The notes under the pieces: model-generated
What the model saw: the letters and a program-made list of their open reading frames with translations, nothing else
Told to the model about the DNA's origin: nothing
Databases searched by the model: none
Shown here: positions 1 through 6,568 of the stretch, piece after piece
How the letters are laid out: each line of letters begins with the position of its first letter
How positions within the stretch are numbered: the stretch's first letter is position 1
Made by a program: the position numbers and the translations under genes
DNA from: Methanobacteriota archaeon
GTDB taxonomy: Archaea > Thermoplasmatota > Thermoplasmata > RBG-16-68-12
Assembly: GCA_005878995.1 (NCBI GenBank)
Contig: VBME01000095.1
Coordinates: 1-6,568, forward strand
Reading direction: 5' to 3'
Length of the DNA: 6,568 bases

Positions 1-670
1 CGATCTCGCGGACCGCACTCGCTGCGCGATCCGGCGGTACCGCCAAGTCGGCGCCGGAATCGAGGGCCGCCTTGCGGGCTTCTTCCCGCACATCGACCGC
101 GAGGACCCGAGCCCCATGGACCTTCGCGACTTGTATGGCGGAGAGCCCAACCCCGCCCGCGCCGATGACGACCGCGAGATCGCCTTCCCCCGCTTGGCCG
201 AGCGCTACAACGGACCGGTACGCGGTCGCGCCGCTGCATCCGAGGGGAGCCGCGAGGGCGGGTTCTAGATTCGGCGGGAATGGGAGGACGGTCGTCTGCT
301 TCGCGACGACGAACTCGGCGTAGCCTCCGGGCGCGTCGAAGCCGAGCGTGGTCCCGTTCTCGCAGAGGTTCGTCCGCATCCGCTTGCACTGCCGACACGT
401 CCCGCAGGGCTGCTCGAAGTGCACGACGACGCGATCCCCGACGTTCGACGCGTAGACGTCCGAGCCGACCTTTGCGACGCGGCCTGCGATTTCGTGACCC
501 GGGATCAGCGGGTCGTGGTTGCCCGCCTTCACCTCATCGAGAAGATGGAGGTCCGTGTGGCACACGCCCGCCGCGAGGACCTGCACGAGGACGTCCTCGG
601 GGCCCGGCTGTGGGTTCGGGACCTGGACGAACTTCACCGTCCCGTCCCGCTCGAATCGGACCGCACGCAT
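1..670 (-). CDS. Zinc-dependent medium-chain alcohol dehydrogenase (partial, C-terminus outside window)
   Basis: Cytoplasmic NAD(P)-dependent oxidoreductase of the medium-chain dehydrogenase/reductase family, oxidising an alcohol or reducing an aldehyde/ketone; the substrate cannot be read from sequence. About 223 residues are visible from the ATG at 668-670; the frame runs off the window's left edge, so roughly the last third of a normal 340-350 aa protein is missing. The GroES-like catalytic domain carries the catalytic-zinc region GVCHTDLH (Cys37, His38) and PGHE (His59, Glu60). A complete structural-zinc cluster follows, with Cys89, Cys92, Cys95 and Cys103 in the classic C-x2-C-x2-C-x7-C spacing. 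The Rossmann fold starts at GAGGVG (170-175), and Asp193 closes the second strand (VLAVD), which favours NAD over NADP. The ATG is preceded by a strong GGAGG ribosome site that lies inside a hairpin. The gene is divergent from the cupredoxin gene. Confidence 0.93.
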   Translation of the reverse strand, partial: MRAVRFERDGTVKFVQVPNPQPGPEDVLVQVLAAGVCHTDLHLLDEVKAGNHDPLIPGHEIAGRVAKVGSDVYASNVGDRVVVHFEQPCGTCRQCKRMRTNLCENGTTLGFDAPGGYAEFVVAKQTTVLPFPPNLEPALAAPLGCSGATAYRSVVALGQAGEGDLAVVIGAGGVGLSAIQVAKVHGARVLAVDVREEARKAALDSGADLAVPPDRAASAVREI

Positions 671-820
671 CTCCCTCCGTTACGGAGGCACGACGGAAAA
701 CGGTTTGGTCTCGACCGAAATTTACATTAGGGTTGCCGGAATCCGCGCCGCGGAGGATGGGCCTCGCATGGCTGCCGGCAGGGATCCACGCTCCATCTAG
801 CCCTTCCGAGAGGCGCGATC
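671..820. promoter_or_regulatory. Divergent intergenic region, dehydrogenase / cupredoxin
   Basis: These 150 bp separate two divergent genes and must hold both promoters. The only AT-rich patch is GAAATTTACATT at 717-728, in an otherwise GC-rich spacer. On the minus strand it would place a transcript start near 697, giving a leader of about 27 nt for the dehydrogenase. On the plus strand it would start near 752, leaving a leader of about 70 nt for the cupredoxin gene. No clear operator other than the hairpin at 674-688 is visible. Confidence 0.35.
674..688 (-). promoter_or_regulatory. Hairpin masking the ribosome site of the alcohol dehydrogenase
   Basis: A perfect 6-bp inverted repeat (CCTCCG, 3-nt loop, CGGAGG) lies immediately before the dehydrogenase start. 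Read on the minus strand, the second arm is the Shine-Dalgarno sequence itself, ending 3 nt from the ATG. A folded mRNA would therefore hide the ribosome site. The repeat is seen directly; regulation is inference. Confidence 0.4.
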
Positions 821-1636
821 ATGGAAGCGACTGAACCGGAAATGGCGAGAAAGGCGCGCGGGCCGTGGACGTTCAACCGACTCCTCCTCACGATAGCGTT
901 CTTTGATCTCGTCCTGGCCCTGCTGGTCAGCGGAGGGTTCTCTCCGGCAGCGTTCCTCCTCTACGGCGCTTTCCTGATTCCCGGGCTCGTCTTCATCGCC
1001 CTCCTGACGTGGAGGCCGAACCCGTGGTTCTACCTCGCGACAGGGATCTCCGTGAGCTATCTCTTCATCGTGTTCCTGCCCTTCATCATCGGAGGGCTGG
1101 CGAACCCGGCTAGCCCATACGAGTTTTCGGGCGACGTCCTCGGCTTGGTCGCGGTGTTCTGGGCGCTCCCGGCCGGCGTCCTCGGGTTCTTGCAAGGCAG
1201 GAGAAGGACCGCGCAACTCGATGCGCGGTCGGGATGGCGGACCCGACAGGGTTTGTACGCCCTTGGCGTCGCGTTCGTCGCGATTGGCGCCATCCTGACG
1301 AGCGCCATCGCGTACAACCATGCGGCCGGCACGCAGACAGGGGGCGGCTTTGACTTCCAGGTTGGCGCGACCGTGAACGTGACGGCTCAAAACTTCGCGT
1401 TCGATCCGTCGACGTTTACCGTGTCCAATCACACTTTCACAGCAATTGTCGTCACGAACCGGGACGCTGTCCTCCATACGTTCACGTACGACTTCAACGG
1501 ACAAACATACACTCACGACTTCTTGCCGGGGACCACGACGAAGTTCCTCGTCTTCTTCGCCGTGTCCGGCTCCATCCCGTTCTGGTGCATCCCGCATCGG
1601 TCGATGGGGATGACGGGGACGATAACGGTTTCGTAG
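821..1636 (+). CDS. Membrane protein with C-terminal cupredoxin (blue-copper) domain
   Basis: A 271-aa membrane-anchored copper protein. Five hydrophobic helices are visible at about residues 19-37, 42-64, 68-91, 105-125 and 144-166. The arginine-rich loop after helix 4 (GRRR, 126-129) and the basic N-terminus (ARKARG) both fall on the cytoplasmic side, so the C-terminal domain faces outward. Residues 175-271 form a plastocyanin-like domain. Type-1 copper ligands are readable as His219 (AVLHTF), then Cys256, His259 and Met264 in FWCIPHRSMGM, with the usual C-x2-H-x4-M spacing. Such domains carry electrons between membrane redox complexes or bind copper; the partner here is unknown. The ATG at 821 follows a weak GAGAGG site. 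An alternative start at Met8 would still keep all helices. The gene stands alone, divergent from the dehydrogenase and convergent with the GYD gene. The N-terminal helices do not match a family I can name. Confidence 0.88.
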   Translation: MEATEPEMARKARGPWTFNRLLLTIAFFDLVLALLVSGGFSPAAFLLYGAFLIPGLVFIALLTWRPNPWFYLATGISVSYLFIVFLPFIIGGLANPASPYEFSGDVLGLVAVFWALPAGVLGFLQGRRRTAQLDARSGWRTRQGLYALGVAFVAIGAILTSAIAYNHAAGTQTGGGFDFQVGATVNVTAQNFAFDPSTFTVSNHTFTAIVVTNRDAVLHTFTYDFNGQTYTHDFLPGTTTKFLVFFAVSGSIPFWCIPHRSMGMTGTITVS

Positions 1637-1641
1637 GGGCG

Positions 1642-1680
1642 AGTCGGATCCGGACCTGAACGGGTGGCCTGGTCCGATCT
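1642..1680. terminator. Possible stem-loop between convergent genes
   Basis: CGGACC (1651-1656) and GGTCCG (1671-1676) form an inverted repeat with a 14-nt loop. Beyond a one-base bulge the pairing continues (GATC before the first arm, ATC after the second). It sits in the 90-bp space between the stops of the convergent cupredoxin and GYD genes. There is no T-run, which archaeal terminators usually have, so the role is uncertain. Confidence 0.25.
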
Positions 1681-1726
1681 GAGATGCTCACTGAGGCGAC
1701 GTGAAGCGTCCGGCAGGCCGAGCGTC

Positions 1727-2017
1727 CTACTGCAGCTTCGCGATGATCTTCGTCCCTTCCGACACGGTCCACGCCTTCAGCGTCTCCGTGCGGACGTTGC
1801 CGAGTCTCCCGATTTCGAGGAGGAGCTGGTTCGCGATCTCGTCGTTGGCGGCTTCCGTAATGGCGACGATGTCGTACCGGCCCATCGTATAGAAGATTTC
1901 CATCTTGGCGCCCAGTTTGTTCGCCAAGGCCGTCACCGCGTCCGCGCGCTTCGGCGACTCTTTCAGGTTCTTGATTCCCTGGTCCGTCCATTTCCCCAAG
2001 CTGATGTAGTGTGGCAT
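1727..2017 (-). CDS. GYD-domain protein
   Basis: A 96-aa soluble protein that looks like a GYD-family member (a small ferredoxin-like alpha/beta domain, PF08734 type). The family has no established biochemical role. The signature appears as GRYDIVAITEA, matching the G-[RY]-[YF]-D core that names the family, preceded by a strand-helix unit beginning PHYISLGKWTDQGIKN. It ends in a charged helix and the strand KAWTVSEGTKI. The ATG at 2015-2017 was chosen over the GTG at 2042-2044 for two reasons: GAGGG sits 8 nt upstream of the ATG, and a TATA-like GTTAAGTA near 2053-2060 would start transcription around 2031, downstream of the GTG. Length and start both suit the family. It is transcribed alone, convergent with the cupredoxin gene and divergent from the Asp-box protein. 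Confidence 0.88.
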   Translation of the reverse strand: MPHYISLGKWTDQGIKNLKESPKRADAVTALANKLGAKMEIFYTMGRYDIVAITEAANDEIANQLLLEIGRLGNVRTETLKAWTVSEGTKIIAKLQ

Positions 2018-2052
2018 AACCAATCCCTCGCGATTCCCTATCACCTGGGGCG

Positions 2053-2060
2053 TACTTAAC
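2053..2060 (-). promoter_or_regulatory. TATA-like element of the GYD gene
   Basis: On the minus strand the sequence reads GTTAAGTA, starting 43 nt before the GYD ATG. The same GTTAAGT string lies at a similar distance before the divergent Asp-box gene. A transcript starting about 25 nt downstream (near 2031) would have a short leader containing the GAGGG ribosome site. Confidence 0.4.
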
Positions 2061-2190
2061 GCGAGCGGGCGGGCCTTCGTCGGTTCGTTGGGATTGCACC
2101 ACGATCCCCGCGGAACGGGAAGCGTCTTCGTTATCGCATTTGAGACCGTCGACGGAGGTGGCCTTGAGGGTTCGCTCCAGTTGCAACAGG

Positions 2191-2198
2191 GTTAAGTG
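2191..2198 (+). promoter_or_regulatory. TATA-like element of the Asp-box protein gene
   Basis: GTTAAGTG starts 47 nt before the chosen ATG at 2238 and predicts transcription from about 2218-2222. It overlaps the in-frame GTG at 2196, which argues against that codon as the translation start. The match to the archaeal TATA consensus is moderate. Confidence 0.38.
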
Positions 2199-2237
2199 GT
2201 CCGCACCGATACCGGGCGAAATGGGTGGGGGAATCCC

Positions 2238-4121
2238 ATGCGGTACGTTGTTGGAATTGTGGTCCTGGTACTCGGATTTGTGTTAATCGCGGCCGGAGCG
2301 CCGGCGTCGGCTGCGTCGAAGGGAAACTCGCAGACGTTTGACATCACGACCCTGGCGGGAAAAGTTGCTTCGATCCAAGCCACGGACGGGTTCTATCTCC
2401 GTGTGTCGCCGTTCTTGGAACAGGAGGCAGACGCGGCGGATGCCGCTCCCGCTCCCGGTCCGTCGTCGCCGATTACGCCGACATTCATCCTGTCGAGTCC
2501 GCTCGACGGCACGTCCGTCGCGGCGCCCGCTGTAACCGTCAACCAGGACACGCTGGGCGCGCCCCAGAACGAACCCGCGATTGCGGTGGATCCGAACAAC
2601 GCGGACCGGATTGTGGTCGGGTCCAACGACTACATCACCCGGACGTGGACGTGCACGATTGACGGCACCCCATGCAGCGCCCTCGGTGACGCCTATTCCG
2701 GCACGTACTACTCGAACGACGGCGGAGCGACCTGGTGTTGCGTCGCGACGGATCCGTCGCACCTCGGGACGTTGATCCCAGGAGTCGAGCGGTTGACCGG
2801 CGGGATCTACGATGCAGGCGGCGACCCGTCTCTCGCGTTCGATAGCCAAGGCCACGTCTTCTTCGCGGGACTCGGCTTCGACCGGACCGCGGCCCCGAAC
2901 ACGGTCGCTGTGAACAAGGGCACCTTCGATTCGGAAGGGGCCCTCACCTGGGGTCCGCCCACGTTCATCAACCCGACCAATTCGCCTTCCACGTTGAACG
3001 ATAAGGAGTGGATCGGCGCGGACACGCACGCCGGGAGCCCGTTCCAAGATCGTGTCTACGTGAGTTGGACGCGGTTCCTCTTCAACCCGCACAACGGGCG
3101 GTATGTCCAGTCTCCCATCGCGTTCGTCTTCTCTTCGGACGGCGGTGCCACGTTCAGCGATCCCCAGTTGATTGTCAGCAACGTGCTGTACGACCAGGGC
3201 TCGCGCGTCGTCGTCGGCCCGGATGGAACGGTCTACGTCTTCTGGGAAGGGTCTACCCGGTTTGCGTCGTTCAACAGCATCTGGATGGTTGCCTCCTCGG
3301 ACGGCGGAGTCTCCTGGAGCAAGCCCGTCGCGGTGGCGCCCGCGGTCGATATCATTCCGCCGTTCAACACGGTGTTCCGCGTCAACAGCTTCCCGGCGGC
3401 CGACATCGCCCCGGACGGGACGCTGTACGTTGCCTGGTCATCCGAGGTGAACAACGACGCGACGACATACGGAGCCGACCCGGTCTGCGCGTATTTCATT
3501 TCCGGCGTCTCCTCGGTCTACAACAACTGCCACTCCTCCGCCGTGTGGAGCAAGTCGACGGATGGCGGCGCGACCTGGAGCAGCCCGGTTCCGATCCTCA
3601 CGACTCTCGACGGATCGAACCGCGCCGCGATTGGGTACCCCGTCACGCAGCCGGATGGCAAGACGAAGCTGTTCGCGCCCCCCGATCGTCGCGTGGACAG
3701 CTTCTGGCCGGCCATCGGCGTGACTCCATCCGGGAACGTCTACATGTCCGCCTACGCCGCGGACGTGGTCTCGCCGTGGCAGCTCTGCAAGAGCCCCGCG
3801 ACACCGACGGCGGTTGGTCGAATCAACTGCCTCGAACTCGGGAACTACACCCACAACGCTCGACTCGACTACGTCGTGGCCGATCTGACGACGGGCGTGA
3901 CGAACACCGTGACGACCCATCCCATCAACTCGCGGTACGGCTTTGGCGGCGGGTTCATCGGGGACTACACGAGCCTGGCGGTTGGTTCCGACAATGTCTT
4001 CCATGCGGTCTGGACGGACACGAACAACAAGCAGTCGGTCGACTGGTGGTTCGGGTTCGAGTTCGCGTCCGGGACGGCCACCCACCAACAGGATATCGTG
4101 ACCGCGTCGGGAGACTTCTAG
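2238..4121 (+). CDS. Secreted sialidase-like Asp-box (BNR) beta-propeller protein
   Basis: A 627-aa exported protein. The ATG at 2238 is favoured over the in-frame GTG at 2196: it follows GGTGGGGG and begins a clean signal peptide (MRYVVGIVVLVLGF, then an alanine-rich end with a likely cut after PASA, residue 25). Four Asp-box motifs (S-x-D-G-G-x-x-W/F) occur at about residues 159-166, 299-306, 353-360 and 440-447, the hallmark of sialidase-fold propellers. Other blade-like repeats are GDPSLAFDSQGHVFFA, VVGPDGTVYVFW and DIAPDGTLYVAW. Eight cysteines (139, 146, 167, 168, 417, 431, 517, 531) suit an extracytoplasmic protein with disulfides. No C-terminal membrane anchor or S-layer signal is visible. 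The family includes true sialidases and many non-enzymatic propellers. I do not see a clear RIP motif or the full arginine triad, so sialidase activity should not be assumed; glycan or protein binding is equally possible. The gene is transcribed alone. Confidence 0.88.
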   Translation: MRYVVGIVVLVLGFVLIAAGAPASAASKGNSQTFDITTLAGKVASIQATDGFYLRVSPFLEQEADAADAAPAPGPSSPITPTFILSSPLDGTSVAAPAVTVNQDTLGAPQNEPAIAVDPNNADRIVVGSNDYITRTWTCTIDGTPCSALGDAYSGTYYSNDGGATWCCVATDPSHLGTLIPGVERLTGGIYDAGGDPSLAFDSQGHVFFAGLGFDRTAAPNTVAVNKGTFDSEGALTWGPPTFINPTNSPSTLNDKEWIGADTHAGSPFQDRVYVSWTRFLFNPHNGRYVQSPIAFVFSSDGGATFSDPQLIVSNVLYDQGSRVVVGPDGTVYVFWEGSTRFASFNSIWMVASSDGGVSWSKPVAVAPAVDIIPPFNTVFRVNSFPAADIAPDGTLYVAWSSEVNNDATTYGADPVCAYFISGVSSVYNNCHSSAVWSKSTDGGATWSSPVPILTTLDGSNRAAIGYPVTQPDGKTKLFAPPDRRVDSFWPAIGVTPSGNVYMSAYAADVVSPWQLCKSPATPTAVGRINCLELGNYTHNARLDYVVADLTTGVTNTVTTHPINSRYGFGGGFIGDYTSLAVGSDNVFHAVWTDTNNKQSVDWWFGFEFASGTATHQQDIVTASGDF

Positions 4122-4180: not shown

Positions 4181-4603
4181 CTATGCGAGCTTCGCCGTCA
4201 TCGTGATGTCCGCCTTCAGGAGGCGGGATATCGGGCACCCTTTCTCGGCCGCGGTCGCGGCGTTTTGGAACTTCCCGGGCTCTGCTCCGGGGACTTTCGC
4301 GGCGACGTCCAGGTGGATCGACTTCACGGTCCAGCCCGCGTCCGTCTTGTCGAAGTTCAAGGTCGCCTTCGTGTCGATCCGTTCCGGGTGGTACCCGAGC
4401 TTCTCGAGCTCGCTCGACAAGGCCATCGAGAAGCAGCCCGCGTGCGCGGCGGCGACCAGCTCCTCGGGATTCGTCCCCGGGGTGTCGCCGAACCGCGTTG
4501 CGAAGCTGTACGGAATGCCCTTGAGGGCGCCGCTCAACGTCGATACCGTGCCCTTCCCGTCTTTCAGGCCTCCATTCCACTGCGCGCTCGCCTTGCGGTC
4601 CAT
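4181..4603 (-). CDS. osmC: OsmC-family peroxiredoxin-like protein
   Basis: A 140-aa cytoplasmic protein of the OsmC/Ohr superfamily, thiol peroxidases that reduce organic hydroperoxides and related oxidants; it belongs to the OsmC branch. The two redox cysteines are Cys57 (AAHAGCFSMAL) and Cys123 (EKGCPISRLL). The conserved arginine is in ATRFGD (Arg37) and the acidic pair in NPEELV (Glu47-Glu48). Length matches the family. The ATG at 4601-4603 was chosen because the family's N-terminus (MDRKASAQWNG) starts there and GGTGAT lies 3 nt upstream; a longer reading from 4750 would run through the overlapping rhodanese remnant. It begins 35 bp after the stop of that remnant, on the same strand, suggesting that rhodanese and osmC were once neighbours or co-transcribed. 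A GTTAA element about 40 nt upstream may now serve as its own promoter. Confidence 0.92.
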   Translation of the reverse strand: MDRKASAQWNGGLKDGKGTVSTLSGALKGIPYSFATRFGDTPGTNPEELVAAAHAGCFSMALSSELEKLGYHPERIDTKATLNFDKTDAGWTVKSIHLDVAAKVPGAEPGKFQNAATAAEKGCPISRLLKADITMTAKLA

Positions 4604-4634: not shown

Positions 4635-4646
4635 AACGTTAACGTT
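4635..4646 (-). promoter_or_regulatory. Palindromic AACGTTAACGTT at the osmC promoter position
   Basis: This 12-bp perfect palindrome (itself a tandem AACGTT) lies 32-43 nt upstream of the osmC ATG, where an archaeal TATA box would be expected. It also covers the TAA stop of the rhodanese fragment. It could be the promoter core, a regulator site, or both; this is inferred from position and symmetry only. Confidence 0.35.
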
Positions 4647-4797
4647 TGCCTCCCTCCGTCGGATTTCGCACGAGGTTTCCCCACTCGGTCCAGGACCCAT
4701 CGTAGTTCCGGACCTCCGGGTAGCCGAGGAGGTACTTCAGGACGAACCACGTGTGCGACGATCGCTCGCCGATCCGTCCGGATTCACCGACCCGGCA
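4639..4797 (-). pseudogene. Rhodanese 3' fragment (displaced or truncated copy)
   Basis: This stretch encodes the last ~50 residues of a rhodanese (thiosulfate sulfurtransferase), nearly identical to the C-terminus of the intact gene at 5785-6568: both read [18 protein letters not shown] and [13 protein letters not shown]. Homology begins at the active-site loop, ends at a TAA stop at 4639-4641, and is lost beyond the catalytic cysteine codon (4795-4797). The whole N-terminal domain and most of the catalytic domain are missing. The loop is also altered, reading [13 protein letters not shown] where the intact gene has CRIGERS, as if six codons were duplicated. A frame from ATG 4804-4806 would give a 55-residue peptide still carrying the cysteine, but nothing suggests it is functional. 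It overlaps the promoter side of the opposing antitoxin gene. Confidence 0.85.
4667..4776. repeat. Direct repeat, left copy (rhodanese 3' end)
   Basis: This is the left copy of a 110-bp direct repeat whose right copy is 5804-5913. Aligned by eye without gaps, 100 of 110 positions match; the longest identical run covers the segment coding LKYLLGYP and its flanks. The two copies bracket the toxin-antitoxin block. Confidence 0.9.
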
Positions 4798-4804
4798 CGA
4801 ATCC

Positions 4805-4812
4805 ATAAGTAT
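4805..4812 (+). promoter_or_regulatory. TATA box of the DUF7557-like antitoxin
   Basis: ATAAGTAT, in an AT-rich patch that stands out from its surroundings, predicts a start of transcription near 4832-4836. That is at or just before the candidate start codons 4832 and 4841, so the mRNA would be leaderless or nearly so. No Shine-Dalgarno site is visible upstream of either ATG. Confidence 0.5.
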
Positions 4813-4822
4813 CATGAGATCA

Positions 4823-4837
4823 ATGCATATCATGCAT
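4823..4837. promoter_or_regulatory. ATGCAT-ATC-ATGCAT dyad over the antitoxin start region
   Basis: Two copies of ATGCAT separated by 3 bp form a 6-3-6 inverted (and direct) repeat between the TATA box and the ATG at 4841. It covers the predicted transcription start. Antitoxins commonly repress their own promoters at such dyads, so this is a candidate operator; binding is inferred. Confidence 0.4.
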
Positions 4838-4840
4838 CCA

Positions 4841-5059
4841 ATGGCTTCGAAAGTTCGCGAGTACACGACCCTGCCGGTCCGCAAAGAGACGCTACGCCGC
4901 CTGAAGGGCTACAAGGTCGGCGGCGTCAGTTATGACGAGCTCCTCAACGACCTTCTTGACGCCCACCCGCCGGAGGAATTCTTCCTAGAGCATCTGCGAC
5001 GACTGAAGCGAGAACCCAGGCGGCCCTGGTCCGAAATCAAGAAAGAACTCAACCTCTGA
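4841..5059 (+). CDS. Orphan antitoxin-like protein, DUF7557 type
   Basis: A 72-aa, highly charged protein resembling the archaeal DUF7557 family of small putative antitoxins. It opens with a short strand ([18 protein letters not shown]), followed by a Gly-Gly turn and the helix [14 protein letters not shown], which suits a ribbon-helix-helix-like DNA-binding fold. A basic/acidic C-terminal tail ([20 protein letters not shown]) could wrap a toxin. The ATG at 4841 was chosen because the conserved region starts there; in-frame ATGs at 4832 and 4814 are alternatives, and 4832 coincides with the predicted transcript start. Members usually lie beside a PIN-domain toxin, but the next gene here is another antitoxin, so this one has no dedicated partner. 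The family call comes from recognising sequence style and is less certain than the VapBC call. Confidence 0.72.
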
Positions 5060-5100
5060 GGAAGGATCGTTGGCCGCGTATGAGATTGTCCACGACACGG

Positions 5101-5108
5101 TTATATAC
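5101..5108 (+). promoter_or_regulatory. TATA box of vapBC (leaderless promoter)
   Basis: TTATATAC is a near-consensus archaeal TATA box centred about 27 nt before the vapB ATG at 5131, so transcription should start at or within a base or two of the ATG. The only purine-rich site (AGGTG, 5125-5129) is 1 nt from the ATG, too close to act as a Shine-Dalgarno site. Confidence 0.7.
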
Positions 5109-5126
5109 ACAGAAACACATACACAG
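5106..5126 (+). repeat. TACACAG direct repeats in the vapBC promoter
   Basis: TACACAG occurs at 5106-5112 and again at 5120-5126, a 14-bp period, between the TATA box and the start codon. The position fits an operator through which VapB or VapBC would block transcription. This is seen in the sequence; the function is inferred. Confidence 0.4.
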
Positions 5127-5130
5127 GTGC

Positions 5131-5370
5131 ATGGGTACAAAGACCATTTCCCTCGAAGATTCCGCGTACGTGAAGCTCAAAGCGGCGAAACGACCGGGGG
5201 AGAGTTTCTCCGACGTAATCAACCGTATCCTGGGAGGCCGCGAGCCGTCCCTGCTCGACCTCCGGGGGCTGTTTGATCGCAAGTCCGTGGACCAGCTCGC
5301 TGCAGCGATTGCTCGAATGCGGGACGAGGATCTCGAGGCACAGAAGCACCGGCCCCCGCTTCGACGGTGA
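5131..5370 (+). CDS. vapB: VapB-type antitoxin (DUF217 family)
   Basis: A 79-aa antitoxin that neutralises the VapC ribonuclease coded directly downstream and probably represses their shared promoter. The N-terminus GTKTISLEDSAYVKLKAAK followed by GESFSDVINRIL is the signature of the archaeal VapB family: a short DNA-binding strand and helices. The C-terminal part (residues 45-79: LRGLFDRK, then an alanine helix and RMRDEDLEAQ) is the likely toxin-binding tail. The ATG at 5131 is favoured because the family starts with M-x-TKTISL and the TATA box predicts a transcript beginning there; an upstream in-frame start at 5080 would precede the promoter. The stop codon lies 4 nt before the vapC start and forms part of vapC's ribosome site. 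Confidence 0.9.
   Translation: MGTKTISLEDSAYVKLKAAKRPGESFSDVINRILGGREPSLLDLRGLFDRKSVDQLAAAIARMRDEDLEAQKHRPPLRR
5366..5370 (+). promoter_or_regulatory. Ribosome site of vapC overlapping the vapB stop
   Basis: GGTGA, complementary to the 3' end of archaeal 16S rRNA, lies 4 nt before the GTG at 5375 and includes the TGA stop of vapB. This supports the GTG start and suggests translational coupling, so toxin is made only from mRNA on which antitoxin is already being translated. Confidence 0.65.
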
Positions 5371-5374
5371 GGCC

Positions 5375-5776
5375 GTGGGAATCACCTTCGACACCAACTT
5401 CATCATCGACCTGCTCCGGTCCGACCGACTCGCTGTCGCAAAAGCGAAAGAGATCGAGACGCGCGGCGACACTCGGTTCCTTACGGCACCGGTCCTCTAC
5501 GAGATCACCGCGGGTCTCCTCTTCGCGCGGTCCCGTTCGGAGGCCGCTGCTTTCCGCGCCTTCGCCTCCCGCCTCACCGTGCTGCCGTTCGACGAAAGCT
5601 CTTCGGTAAAGGCTGCGGAGATCCGGGCCGAGCTCATGCGGCTCGGAAGGTCGAAAGGCCACCTCGATACGATGATCGCGGGAATCGTGATCCAAGGAGG
5701 GCACACGCTCGTCACGAGGGATCGAGACCTCATGGAGATCTCCCAGGCGGTGGGTTTGACCGTCGAGGGGTACTAG
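5375..5776 (+). CDS. vapC: VapC toxin, PIN-domain ribonuclease
   Basis: A 133-aa PIN-domain endoribonuclease, the toxin of a type II toxin-antitoxin pair; known relatives cut tRNA or rRNA using Mg2+ or Mn2+. The acidic metal site is complete: Asp6 (TFDTNFIID), Glu43 (PVLYEIT), Asp98 (GHLDTMIAG) and Asp116 (LVTRDRDL), in the expected order and spacing, so the toxin appears intact. The GTG at 5375 was chosen because FDTN normally falls within the first ten residues and GGTGA precedes it; the frame is open much further upstream inside vapB, but that would add a non-family extension. It is in one unit with vapB. Its stop is only 8 bp from the stop of the convergent rhodanese gene. Confidence 0.92.
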   Translation: MGITFDTNFIIDLLRSDRLAVAKAKEIETRGDTRFLTAPVLYEITAGLLFARSRSEAAAFRAFASRLTVLPFDESSSVKAAEIRAELMRLGRSKGHLDTMIAGIVIQGGHTLVTRDRDLMEISQAVGLTVEGY

Positions 5777-5784
5777 GCCAATCC

Positions 5785-6568
5785 TCACTTCTCGATCGGC
5801 GTCCGCACGAGGTTCCCCCACTCCGTCCAGGAGCCGTCGTAGTTCCGGACGTTCGGGTAGCCGAGGAGGTACTTCAGGACGAACCAGGTGTGCGATGACC
5901 GTTCGCCGATCCGGCAGTACGCGATGACTTCCTTGTCCGGCGTGACGCCTTTCGGCTCGTAGAGCGCCTTCAACTCATCCGGCGCCTTGAACGTCCCGTC
6001 CTCGTTGACGGCTTGCGCCCAGGGGATGTTCTTTGCCCCGGGGATGTGCCCGCCGCGCTGCGCGTGCTCCGTCGGATATTCCGGCGGCGCGAGGATCTCG
6101 CCGCTGAACTCCTTCGGTCCGCGGACGTCGACGAGGACTTTCCCCGCCTGCTTGTACGCCTCCCGGGCGTACGCGAGATAAACGCGGAGGGTCTCGTCCG
6201 GCTCCTTCGCGGTGAAGGTCGTCGCCGGGAACGACGGCACGTCCTTCGTCACGGGCAGATCCTGCTCGATCCATTTCTTTCGACCGCCGTTCAGGAGGAC
6301 GACGTTCTCGACGCCGTAATACTTGAACACCCAGAAAGCGAACGCCGCGAACCAGTTGTTGAAGTCGCCGTAGAGGACGATCTGATGGTCGTTCGAGATG
6401 CCGAGGCGGCCGAAGAGCGCCTCGAGGCCGTCCTTCGAGACGATGTCCCGGCGCACCGGATCGTTGATGTCCTTCTTCCAGTCGATCAGGACCGACCCCG
6501 GGATGTGCCCGAGGTTATAGTTCGGCGTCGGGTCATAGTCCACCTCGACGATTCGCACGGTCTCGTTG
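5785..6568 (-). CDS. Thiosulfate sulfurtransferase, tandem rhodanese domains (partial, N-terminus outside window)
   Basis: Cytoplasmic sulfurtransferase that moves sulfane sulfur from a donor such as thiosulfate to cyanide or a thiol acceptor through a cysteine persulfide. About 261 residues are visible; the frame is open to the right edge (in-frame residues NETVRIVEVD), so the true start lies some 20-25 residues outside, and an apparent GTG start at 6556-6558 is only an internal valine. The first rhodanese domain has no cysteine at the active-site position (VLYGDFNNWF) and is catalytically silent, as usual in tandem rhodaneses. The second has VLVDVRGPKEF, GHIPGAKNIPW and the loop CRIGERS with catalytic Cys at codon 5914-5916. 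The [12 protein letters not shown] loop resembles CysA/SseA-type enzymes. Its last 110 bp before the active site are duplicated at 4667-4776. Confidence 0.93.
   Translation of the reverse strand, partial: NETVRIVEVDYDPTPNYNLGHIPGSVLIDWKKDINDPVRRDIVSKDGLEALFGRLGISNDHQIVLYGDFNNWFAAFAFWVFKYYGVENVVLLNGGRKKWIEQDLPVTKDVPSFPATTFTAKEPDETLRVYLAYAREAYKQAGKVLVDVRGPKEFSGEILAPPEYPTEHAQRGGHIPGAKNIPWAQAVNEDGTFKAPDELKALYEPKGVTPDKEVIAYCRIGERSSHTWFVLKYLLGYPNVRNYDGSWTEWGNLVRTPIEK
5804..5913. repeat. Direct repeat, right copy (inside intact rhodanese)
   Basis: This is the right copy of the 110-bp repeat. It ends exactly at the arginine codon next to the catalytic cysteine codon (5914-5916). The left copy at 4667-4776 loses colinearity at the same codon. 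Confidence 0.9.

Follow-up and report, generated by a model that had tools for sequence, protein, structure and literature searches.

Toxin–antitoxin (TA) operons are usually thought to travel as passengers of plasmids, viruses, transposons and integrons, and integron arrays can also carry TA cassettes. In the available part of one account, nearly all VapBC loci of S. islandicus LAL14/1 are flanked by degenerated insertion sequence copies (PMC3718332). Integration into tRNA genes and the 3′ ends of protein genes, and the accretion of cis-mobilisable elements (CIMEs) at gene 3′ ends, are already known from the available parts of two further papers (PMC6563490, PMC7563491): integrated elements of Thaumarchaeota target tRNA genes and the 3′-distal parts of protein genes, with tandem insertion also on record for casposons at ef-2 (PMC6563490), and CIMEs are known at 1.2–13 kb, together with gene-less microCIMEs of 130–220 bp (PMC7563491). 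Here we describe a 6,568-nucleotide stretch of DNA from a Methanobacteriota archaeon (assembly GCA_005878995.1, contig VBME01000095.1; hereafter the window), in which TA genes lie between the 3′ end of a rhodanese gene and a second, stump-like copy of that 3′ end. The window is best read as a single site within an array of cassettes behind the rhodanese gene: in its relatives, copies of the rhodanese 3′ end enclose different TA operons, and related operons are enclosed by copies of the ends of other genes.

The window cassette

Self-comparison of the window revealed a direct repeat (4667–4776 and 5804–5913) that is identical at 100 of 110 positions without gaps, with exactly the coordinates given in a first-pass annotation of this DNA. 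The repeat can be extended to 4654–4776 and 5791–5913 at 108/123 identity and is by far the largest in the window, the runner-up listed being 31 nt. That annotation had also described three opposite-strand antitoxin/toxin genes enclosed by the repeat, an intact rhodanese completed by one copy with the other left as a stump, and a cargo devoid of recombinase, all of which was borne out. The three genes were assigned by Pfam to DUF7557, VapB and VapC, the rhodanese is a PF00581 frame with an intact stop codon, and the unit was found to contain only VapBC, DUF7557 and six relE codons, with no recombinase inside it. The genomes compared with the window are labelled G; the comparison set was the order of the Euryarchaeota metagenome genome EA_13 (37 genomes), which with RBG_19FT_COMBO_69_17 holds the closest named relatives of the rhodanese (88% and 80%, respectively). 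The features of the locus are as follows.

5785..6567, minus strand: rhodanese/sulfurtransferase, open frame (PF00581, E 9.5e-34), stop intact, start past the window edge
5791..5913, minus strand: copy A, the rhodanese 3′ end belonging to the intact gene (repeat comparison and 3′-end DNA profile)
5375..5776, plus strand: VapC toxin, PIN domain (PF01850, E 1.9e-14)
5131..5370, plus strand: VapB antitoxin (PF02697, E 1.1e-15)
5101..5108, plus strand: TATA-like element ahead of vapBC (by eye; similar stretch in the G025 and G037 cassettes)
5070..5087, plus strand: relE remnant, first six codons LAAYEI (sequence, open reading frame at 5070, comparison with RelE of G026, G032 and G033)
4823..5059, plus strand: DUF7557 antitoxin-like gene (PF24434, E 5.5e-6); identical gene paired with relE in G026
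4720..5074, no strand: 355-bp tract identical to G026 with diverged flanks, one end inside the stump
4654..4776, minus strand: copy B, the stump, adjoining osmC (repeat comparison and 3′-end DNA profile)
4181..4603, minus strand: OsmC family peroxiredoxin (PF02566, TIGR03562), coming after the stump

The rhodanese gene, whose relatives within the order reach up to 97% identity, is best read as the host gene, with the insertion site at its 3′ end. The stop codon of vapC lies 8 bp away from that of the rhodanese gene. The vapB and vapC genes are adjacent with 4 bp between them, the arrangement of a VapBC operon (PF02697 followed by PF01850), and judged by family and gene arrangement they are a predicted type II TA pair. 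In G037 and G025, homologues of the window VapC with 97% identity lie between rhodanese 3′ ends.

Comparison with relatives bears on how this cassette was put together. G026 shares the window order of rhodanese, cassette, stump and osmC, and its cassette is DUF7557-RelE; G025 and G037 have a VapBC cassette, with its own stump, enclosed by rhodanese 3′ ends. Since DUF7557 is paired with relE in G026 and VapBC stands as a separate cassette in G025 and G037, the DUF7557 gene of the window appears to be an orphan. The window cassette is most simply explained, on these sequence comparisons, as a composite in which DUF7557 would be left over from an older DUF7557-RelE cassette, its toxin gene cut where VapBC begins. 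The VapBC cassette would then lie on the older one, with relE and the stump between them gone; the relE remnant is placed between DUF7557 and the VapBC promoter and is fused to the vapBC upstream sequence. At this junction (window 5080–5100) the relE sequence (as in G026) and the vapBC sequence (as in G025) have three bases, TTG, in common, an overlap that resembles an illegitimate deletion joint.

The window and G026 have the same DUF7557 sequence at 234/234 positions, compared with 88.7% identity for rhodanese and 93.6% for osmC in the flanks. The 355-bp tract of identity takes in the relE start, the antitoxin gene and its promoter and continues into the stump, where it terminates inside the 3′ end, 69 nt ahead of the codon-260 end (window frame numbering). 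We read this tract as the probable footprint of an exchange with a breakpoint within the duplicated 3′ end.

The remaining neighbours, within window positions 1–4121, are an alcohol dehydrogenase-like gene (1–670) and genes for a cupredoxin-domain protein (821–1636), a GYD protein (1727–2044) and a BNR/Asp-box repeat protein (2196–4121).

Cassettes behind rhodanese and other gene ends

Consecutive copies of the rhodanese 3′ end enclose 18 intervals shorter than 2 kb (one each in the window, G010, G019, G021, G025, G026 and G029–G036, and four in G037), and a TA pair is present in 16 of them. Representative cargo genes were scanned against Pfam and the remaining genes assigned by eye from their likeness to these, giving at least five TA families: DUF7557 with a ParE/RelE-type toxin, VapB-VapC, MazE-PIN, HicB-HicA, and PIN with a small antitoxin-like gene. 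In G037 the PIN_2 gene has an antitoxin-like partner without a Pfam match, and one pair is broken. The two intervals without a pair hold a HicB-like gene alone (G037, 26276–27264) and a glyoxalase-family gene (G019). Four further G037 intervals, of 3–9 kb, contain RHS/YD-repeat-like, ABC-transporter-like and other genes, with no TA pair seen. A typical unit measures 0.5–1.8 kb and holds little besides the TA operon; no recombinase was noticed among the units read, in a domain scan that did not cover every frame. Most operons are oriented against rhodanese, and their toxin stop codon falls within tens of bp of that of rhodanese; HicBA of G021, the glyoxalase gene of G019 and two units of G037 share the rhodanese orientation instead. 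The 3′ end and spacer of the VapBC cassette are almost unchanged between the window, G025 and G037, and two or more spacer forms accompany the RelE and MazE-PIN cassettes.

A rhodanese protein match was obtained in 23 of the 37 genomes, and a 3′-end DNA profile run on fetched contigs detected stumps in 14 of the 37 (G010, G019, G021, G025, G026 and G029–G037). G038 was left out of this count, since its piece runs up to the end of the contig and could belong to an intact gene that the contig truncates. Also omitted were short remnants in G027 and on the second G031 contig. Across several cassette families the stumps begin mostly ~138–148 nt ahead of the codon-260 end (by eye), and several G037 stumps begin further upstream. 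G037 carries eight pieces on one contig, all downstream of the intact rhodanese, one of them covering only the upstream half of the profile. The osmC gene follows rhodanese or its 3′ end on the same contig at seven loci (window, G025, G026, G028, G029, G037 and G038), at a distance of 38 kb in G037. In G028 a DUF7557-RelE cassette is present without a stump, and in G002 rhodanese is directly followed by alcohol dehydrogenase. In a wider search the 61-residue rhodanese end matched in 136 of 400 genomes of the class; no other clear 3′-only copies outside the order were found among the matches listed, contig-edge fragments and G327:C161 being left aside.

Two of these loci hold further detail. 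A short 3′-only rhodanese frame in a genome outside the order (G327:C161:14244-14423, a 91 aa open frame) is possibly another stump. The rhodanese–osmC interval of G037 (C37, 8.7–46.6 kb, L118–L120) contains RHS/YD-repeat-like proteins and ABC-transporter-like and methyltransferase-like genes, as well as a partial second osmC copy at 25442–25636.

Relatives of the cassette genes were also examined away from rhodanese. The first-pass annotation had suggested a search for other TA cassettes flanked by host gene 3′ ends; such cassettes were found behind tRNA, RNase P RNA and other genes. A gene was scored as bracketed when flanked by direct repeats of at least 30 bp at 75% identity with E up to 1e-4, and the loci tested were those with DNA returned (30 of 34 listed DUF7557 matches, 30 of the VapC matches and 12 of 12 HicA matches). 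Overall, 27 of 72 loci of DUF7557, VapC and HicA relatives in the order were bracketed, by repeats of up to 186 bp. Away from rhodanese the figure was 17/59 (DUF7557 6/20, VapC relatives 5/28, HicA 6/11), as against 0/60 for the controls (AsnC-family 0/30, integrase 0/30), with Fisher P values of 3.9e-6 for 17/58 vs 0/57 and 1.4e-6 for 17/58 vs 0/60; three integrase loci and one weak HicA locus were tested for brackets and none was bracketed. When this test was applied to 24 HicA loci outside the order, 5 passed, only one of which (L342) resembles a gene 3′ end. This locus, in an AT-rich genome (G199:C51), consists of HicBA bracketed by a 209-bp repeat. Within the order, 11 of the 17 non-rhodanese repeats resemble gene ends, as listed here by locus.

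L175, L180, L181, L182, L188: tRNA-like repeats (L180 by likeness only, with no intact tRNA)
L198: RNase P RNA repeat
L225: prefoldin beta repeat, ending exactly at the stop codon
L229, L262, L263: one protein gene end, its repeat shared by three loci on two contigs (frame ending YDFYLIAHEHLYVFR..., intact gene not seen there)
L270: another protein frame end as repeat

Related operons recur at different targets. The DUF7557-RelE cassettes of G026 (at rhodanese) and G002:C29 (in an array ending at a tRNA gene) are 71% identical over 542 bp, a likeness that stops 11–26 bp short of the repeats in G026 and 36–174 bp short of them in G002, and HicBA at rhodanese (G021) is 74–77% identical over 405–420 bp to HicBA at another gene's repeats (G010, G009). 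Arrays were also found: in G010:C173, copies of one gene end enclose VapBC, a PIN gene beside HicBA, and a HEPN/MNT-like pair (by eye; the HEPN-like frame matched no Pfam family), and in the RNase P RNA array of G002:C33 a copy pair is identical at 134/134 positions. The repeat begins at the anticodon stem in the tRNA-Thr array of G021:C17 and, in G019:C96, on the 3′ side of the anticodon stem, after an intron. The tRNA-gene repeats at L310 (G002:C29) and L222/L319 (G031:C79) run ~30 nt past the tRNA end, in an extension that could form a GC-rich hairpin and is similar in the two contigs.

Origin of the cassettes

We propose that compact TA cassettes are inserted at gene 3′ ends by a crossover within the 3′ end and are kept because their loss is punished, and we assign this reading a probability of roughly 0.5. 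The unit would consist of a compact TA operon and one copy of the target 3′ end (~145 nt, beginning near the active-site loop and ending about the stop codon), which in circular or linear form would recombine with the resident 3′ end. Because a single crossover would fall within the 3′ end, the resident gene would stay whole and a stump would be left behind. Repeated rounds could build arrays such as the 38-kb interval of G037, and the direct repeats would in turn allow loss of the intervening DNA through the same recombination; TA enrichment and compactness may then arise because operons that punish their own loss survive recombinational loss best. As to the crossover itself, we lean towards host homologous recombination rather than an unlinked site-specific recombinase, since the repeats are long, the breakpoint of the tract shared with G026 lies in mid-repeat, and no linked integrases were found. 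A general, integrase-free archaeal cassette system, in which TA operons act as minimal mobile units that borrow the 3′ end of the conserved protein, tRNA or RNase P RNA gene ahead of them as a movable stretch of homology, enter the chromosome through ordinary homologous recombination and endure in arrays resembling those of integrons because their recombinational loss is punished, is a tentative extension of this proposal that we consider somewhat unlikely.

Several observations weigh against crossover within the 3′ end as set out above. Stumps that begin within a narrow zone, and a repeat that begins at the anticodon stem in G021:C17, favour a site-specific enzyme. No circle or excision product was seen, and the uninterrupted rhodanese–osmC site without a cassette that the first-pass annotation had suggested seeking was not found among relatives. 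The four G037 intervals of 3–9 kb and the G019 interval show no TA pair, 42 of the 59 non-rhodanese loci are without brackets, and six of the 17 brackets (L211, L214, L216, L267, L268, L271) were not identified as gene 3′ ends, L211 resembling paralogous ABC genes and L216 a helicase 5′ end. A clear mosaic was seen in one genome pair only, and comparisons of G026, G032, G033, G034/G001 and G029/G030 look mostly vertical. A viral carrier of the rhodanese 3′ end was considered separately and set aside, one pattern scan of viral contigs having returned 0 matches.

The geometry had at first suggested an element that integrates at the end of a gene. Insertion with a second 3′ end is well supported, because different cassettes lie behind the same gene and related cassettes behind tRNA, RNase P RNA and other genes; that the element is of the integrase type is unproven, given the distribution of recombinases. 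PF00589, a general model that is not IntI-specific, was matched in 17 of the 37 genomes but not found in 10 of the 14 stump-bearing ones, and its matches in the other four are not on the array contig; PF16795 was found in 0/37, although these are draft genomes, so that missing matches are not proof of absence. Neither model matched on array contigs. If the units were integrated site-specifically, by a recombinase supplied in trans or lost afterwards, they would be cassettes flanked by attachment (att) sites, each site extending between the gene end and a core close to where the stump begins, and their TA genes would be the cargo kept after other genes were lost. The targets are indeed classic ones (tRNA, RNase P RNA, protein gene ends), the repeats of G021:C17 and G019:C96 start at the anticodon stem and on its 3′ side, respectively, stumps of several cassette families begin close together (by eye), and CIME accretion at the 3′ ends of rpsI, fda, rpmG and rplL is described in the available part of one study (PMC7563491). 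Set against this are the scarcity of recombinases, repeats of up to 186 bp where att sites or target-site duplications in Thaumarchaeota are generally short (PMC6563490, in its available part), and an exchange tract that ends away from the stump start. We regard this route as unlikely.

Another route would have an enzyme insert a bare TA unit and duplicate the resident 3′ end, as spacer acquisition duplicates a CRISPR repeat. This would account for related units at different targets with target-specific repeats and for near-identical copy pairs, namely the RNase P RNA pair of G002:C33 and the rhodanese pairs of G032 (97.6%) and G025 (98.3%). It also fits the codon differences between copies: over 19 pairs 103 non-synonymous differences were seen, with 174 expected if all were neutral and 87 if half were, which is compatible with decay of one copy. 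The nearly constant 3′ end and spacer of the VapBC cassette in three genomes argue the other way, as if the 3′ end travels along, and we know of no enzyme that duplicates 40–190 bp; such target duplication is in our view quite improbable. Synonymous-codon identity within the order is slightly higher in the last 43 codons (0.75–0.78) than in the gene body (0.63–0.74), and is not higher in the outgroup (0.57–0.68 vs 0.58–0.73). As these synonymous and non-synonymous counts fail to separate a donor copy from a duplicate that then decayed, the 9% divergence of the window copies, previously taken as an argument on age, does not date the event. Lastly, a tandem duplication of rhodanese in which the cassette afterwards took the place of most of one copy, raised earlier as an alternative, would explain a stump beside an intact copy in a single genome. 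It was rejected because no contig with two full tandem copies appeared among the matches listed for the 37 genomes, the extra copies being mostly 3′-end pieces; moreover, a single contig can hold as many as eight rhodanese pieces, and the same operon types also occur between pieces of unrelated genes, which leaves it a very slight chance.

Relation to known systems

In the literature searched, no description was found of TA operons bracketed by host gene 3′ ends or of arrays of near-bare TA units at several gene ends. The recurrent arrays suggest a little-known way for TA pairs to settle and spread: here TA operons appear as near-bare units in host-gene-end arrays, at several kinds of gene, within one archaeal order. 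If our proposal is right, it offers a simple account of how TA operons that bring no recombinase pass from chromosome to chromosome and of why they gather beside conserved genes. The signature of gene 3′ end, operon and gene 3′ end would be searchable in any genome, and the survival of TA operons between direct repeats through punished loss would become testable.

By Pfam the cargo belongs to the type II families VapBC, ParE/RelE, HicBA and MazE-PIN, and what differs is its bracketing by host gene 3′ ends. Like integron arrays, including archaeal ones (PMC9668308, in its available part), the rhodanese arrays consist of small gene units separated by a repeated sequence. Unlike in integrons, this repeat is a host gene 3′ end that differs per locus and in the window shows no particular tendency to fold as a single strand: no attC sites with a conserved fold were found, both window copies folding no better than shuffles (z 0.2–0.5), and identity with attC was rejected. 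The integrated elements of Thaumarchaeota use the same kinds of target, but their att sites or target duplications are, in the available part of the account, generally short (13 bp in one example; PMC6563490), whereas the present units have long repeats and showed no recombinase. CIMEs, as the available part of their description has them (PMC7563491), and the units of these arrays are alike in lacking recombination genes, in being stacked in tandem where a conserved gene ends and in being bounded by direct repeats; the units read here have such repeat bounds at a gene 3′ end and no recombination genes. No parental integrative element (conjugative or mobilisable) was found for the present units, though no search aimed at each target was made. 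They further differ from CIMEs in being mostly 0.5–1.8 kb long, in carrying nearly nothing but a TA operon, in using several kinds of target within one order and in residing in archaeal hosts.

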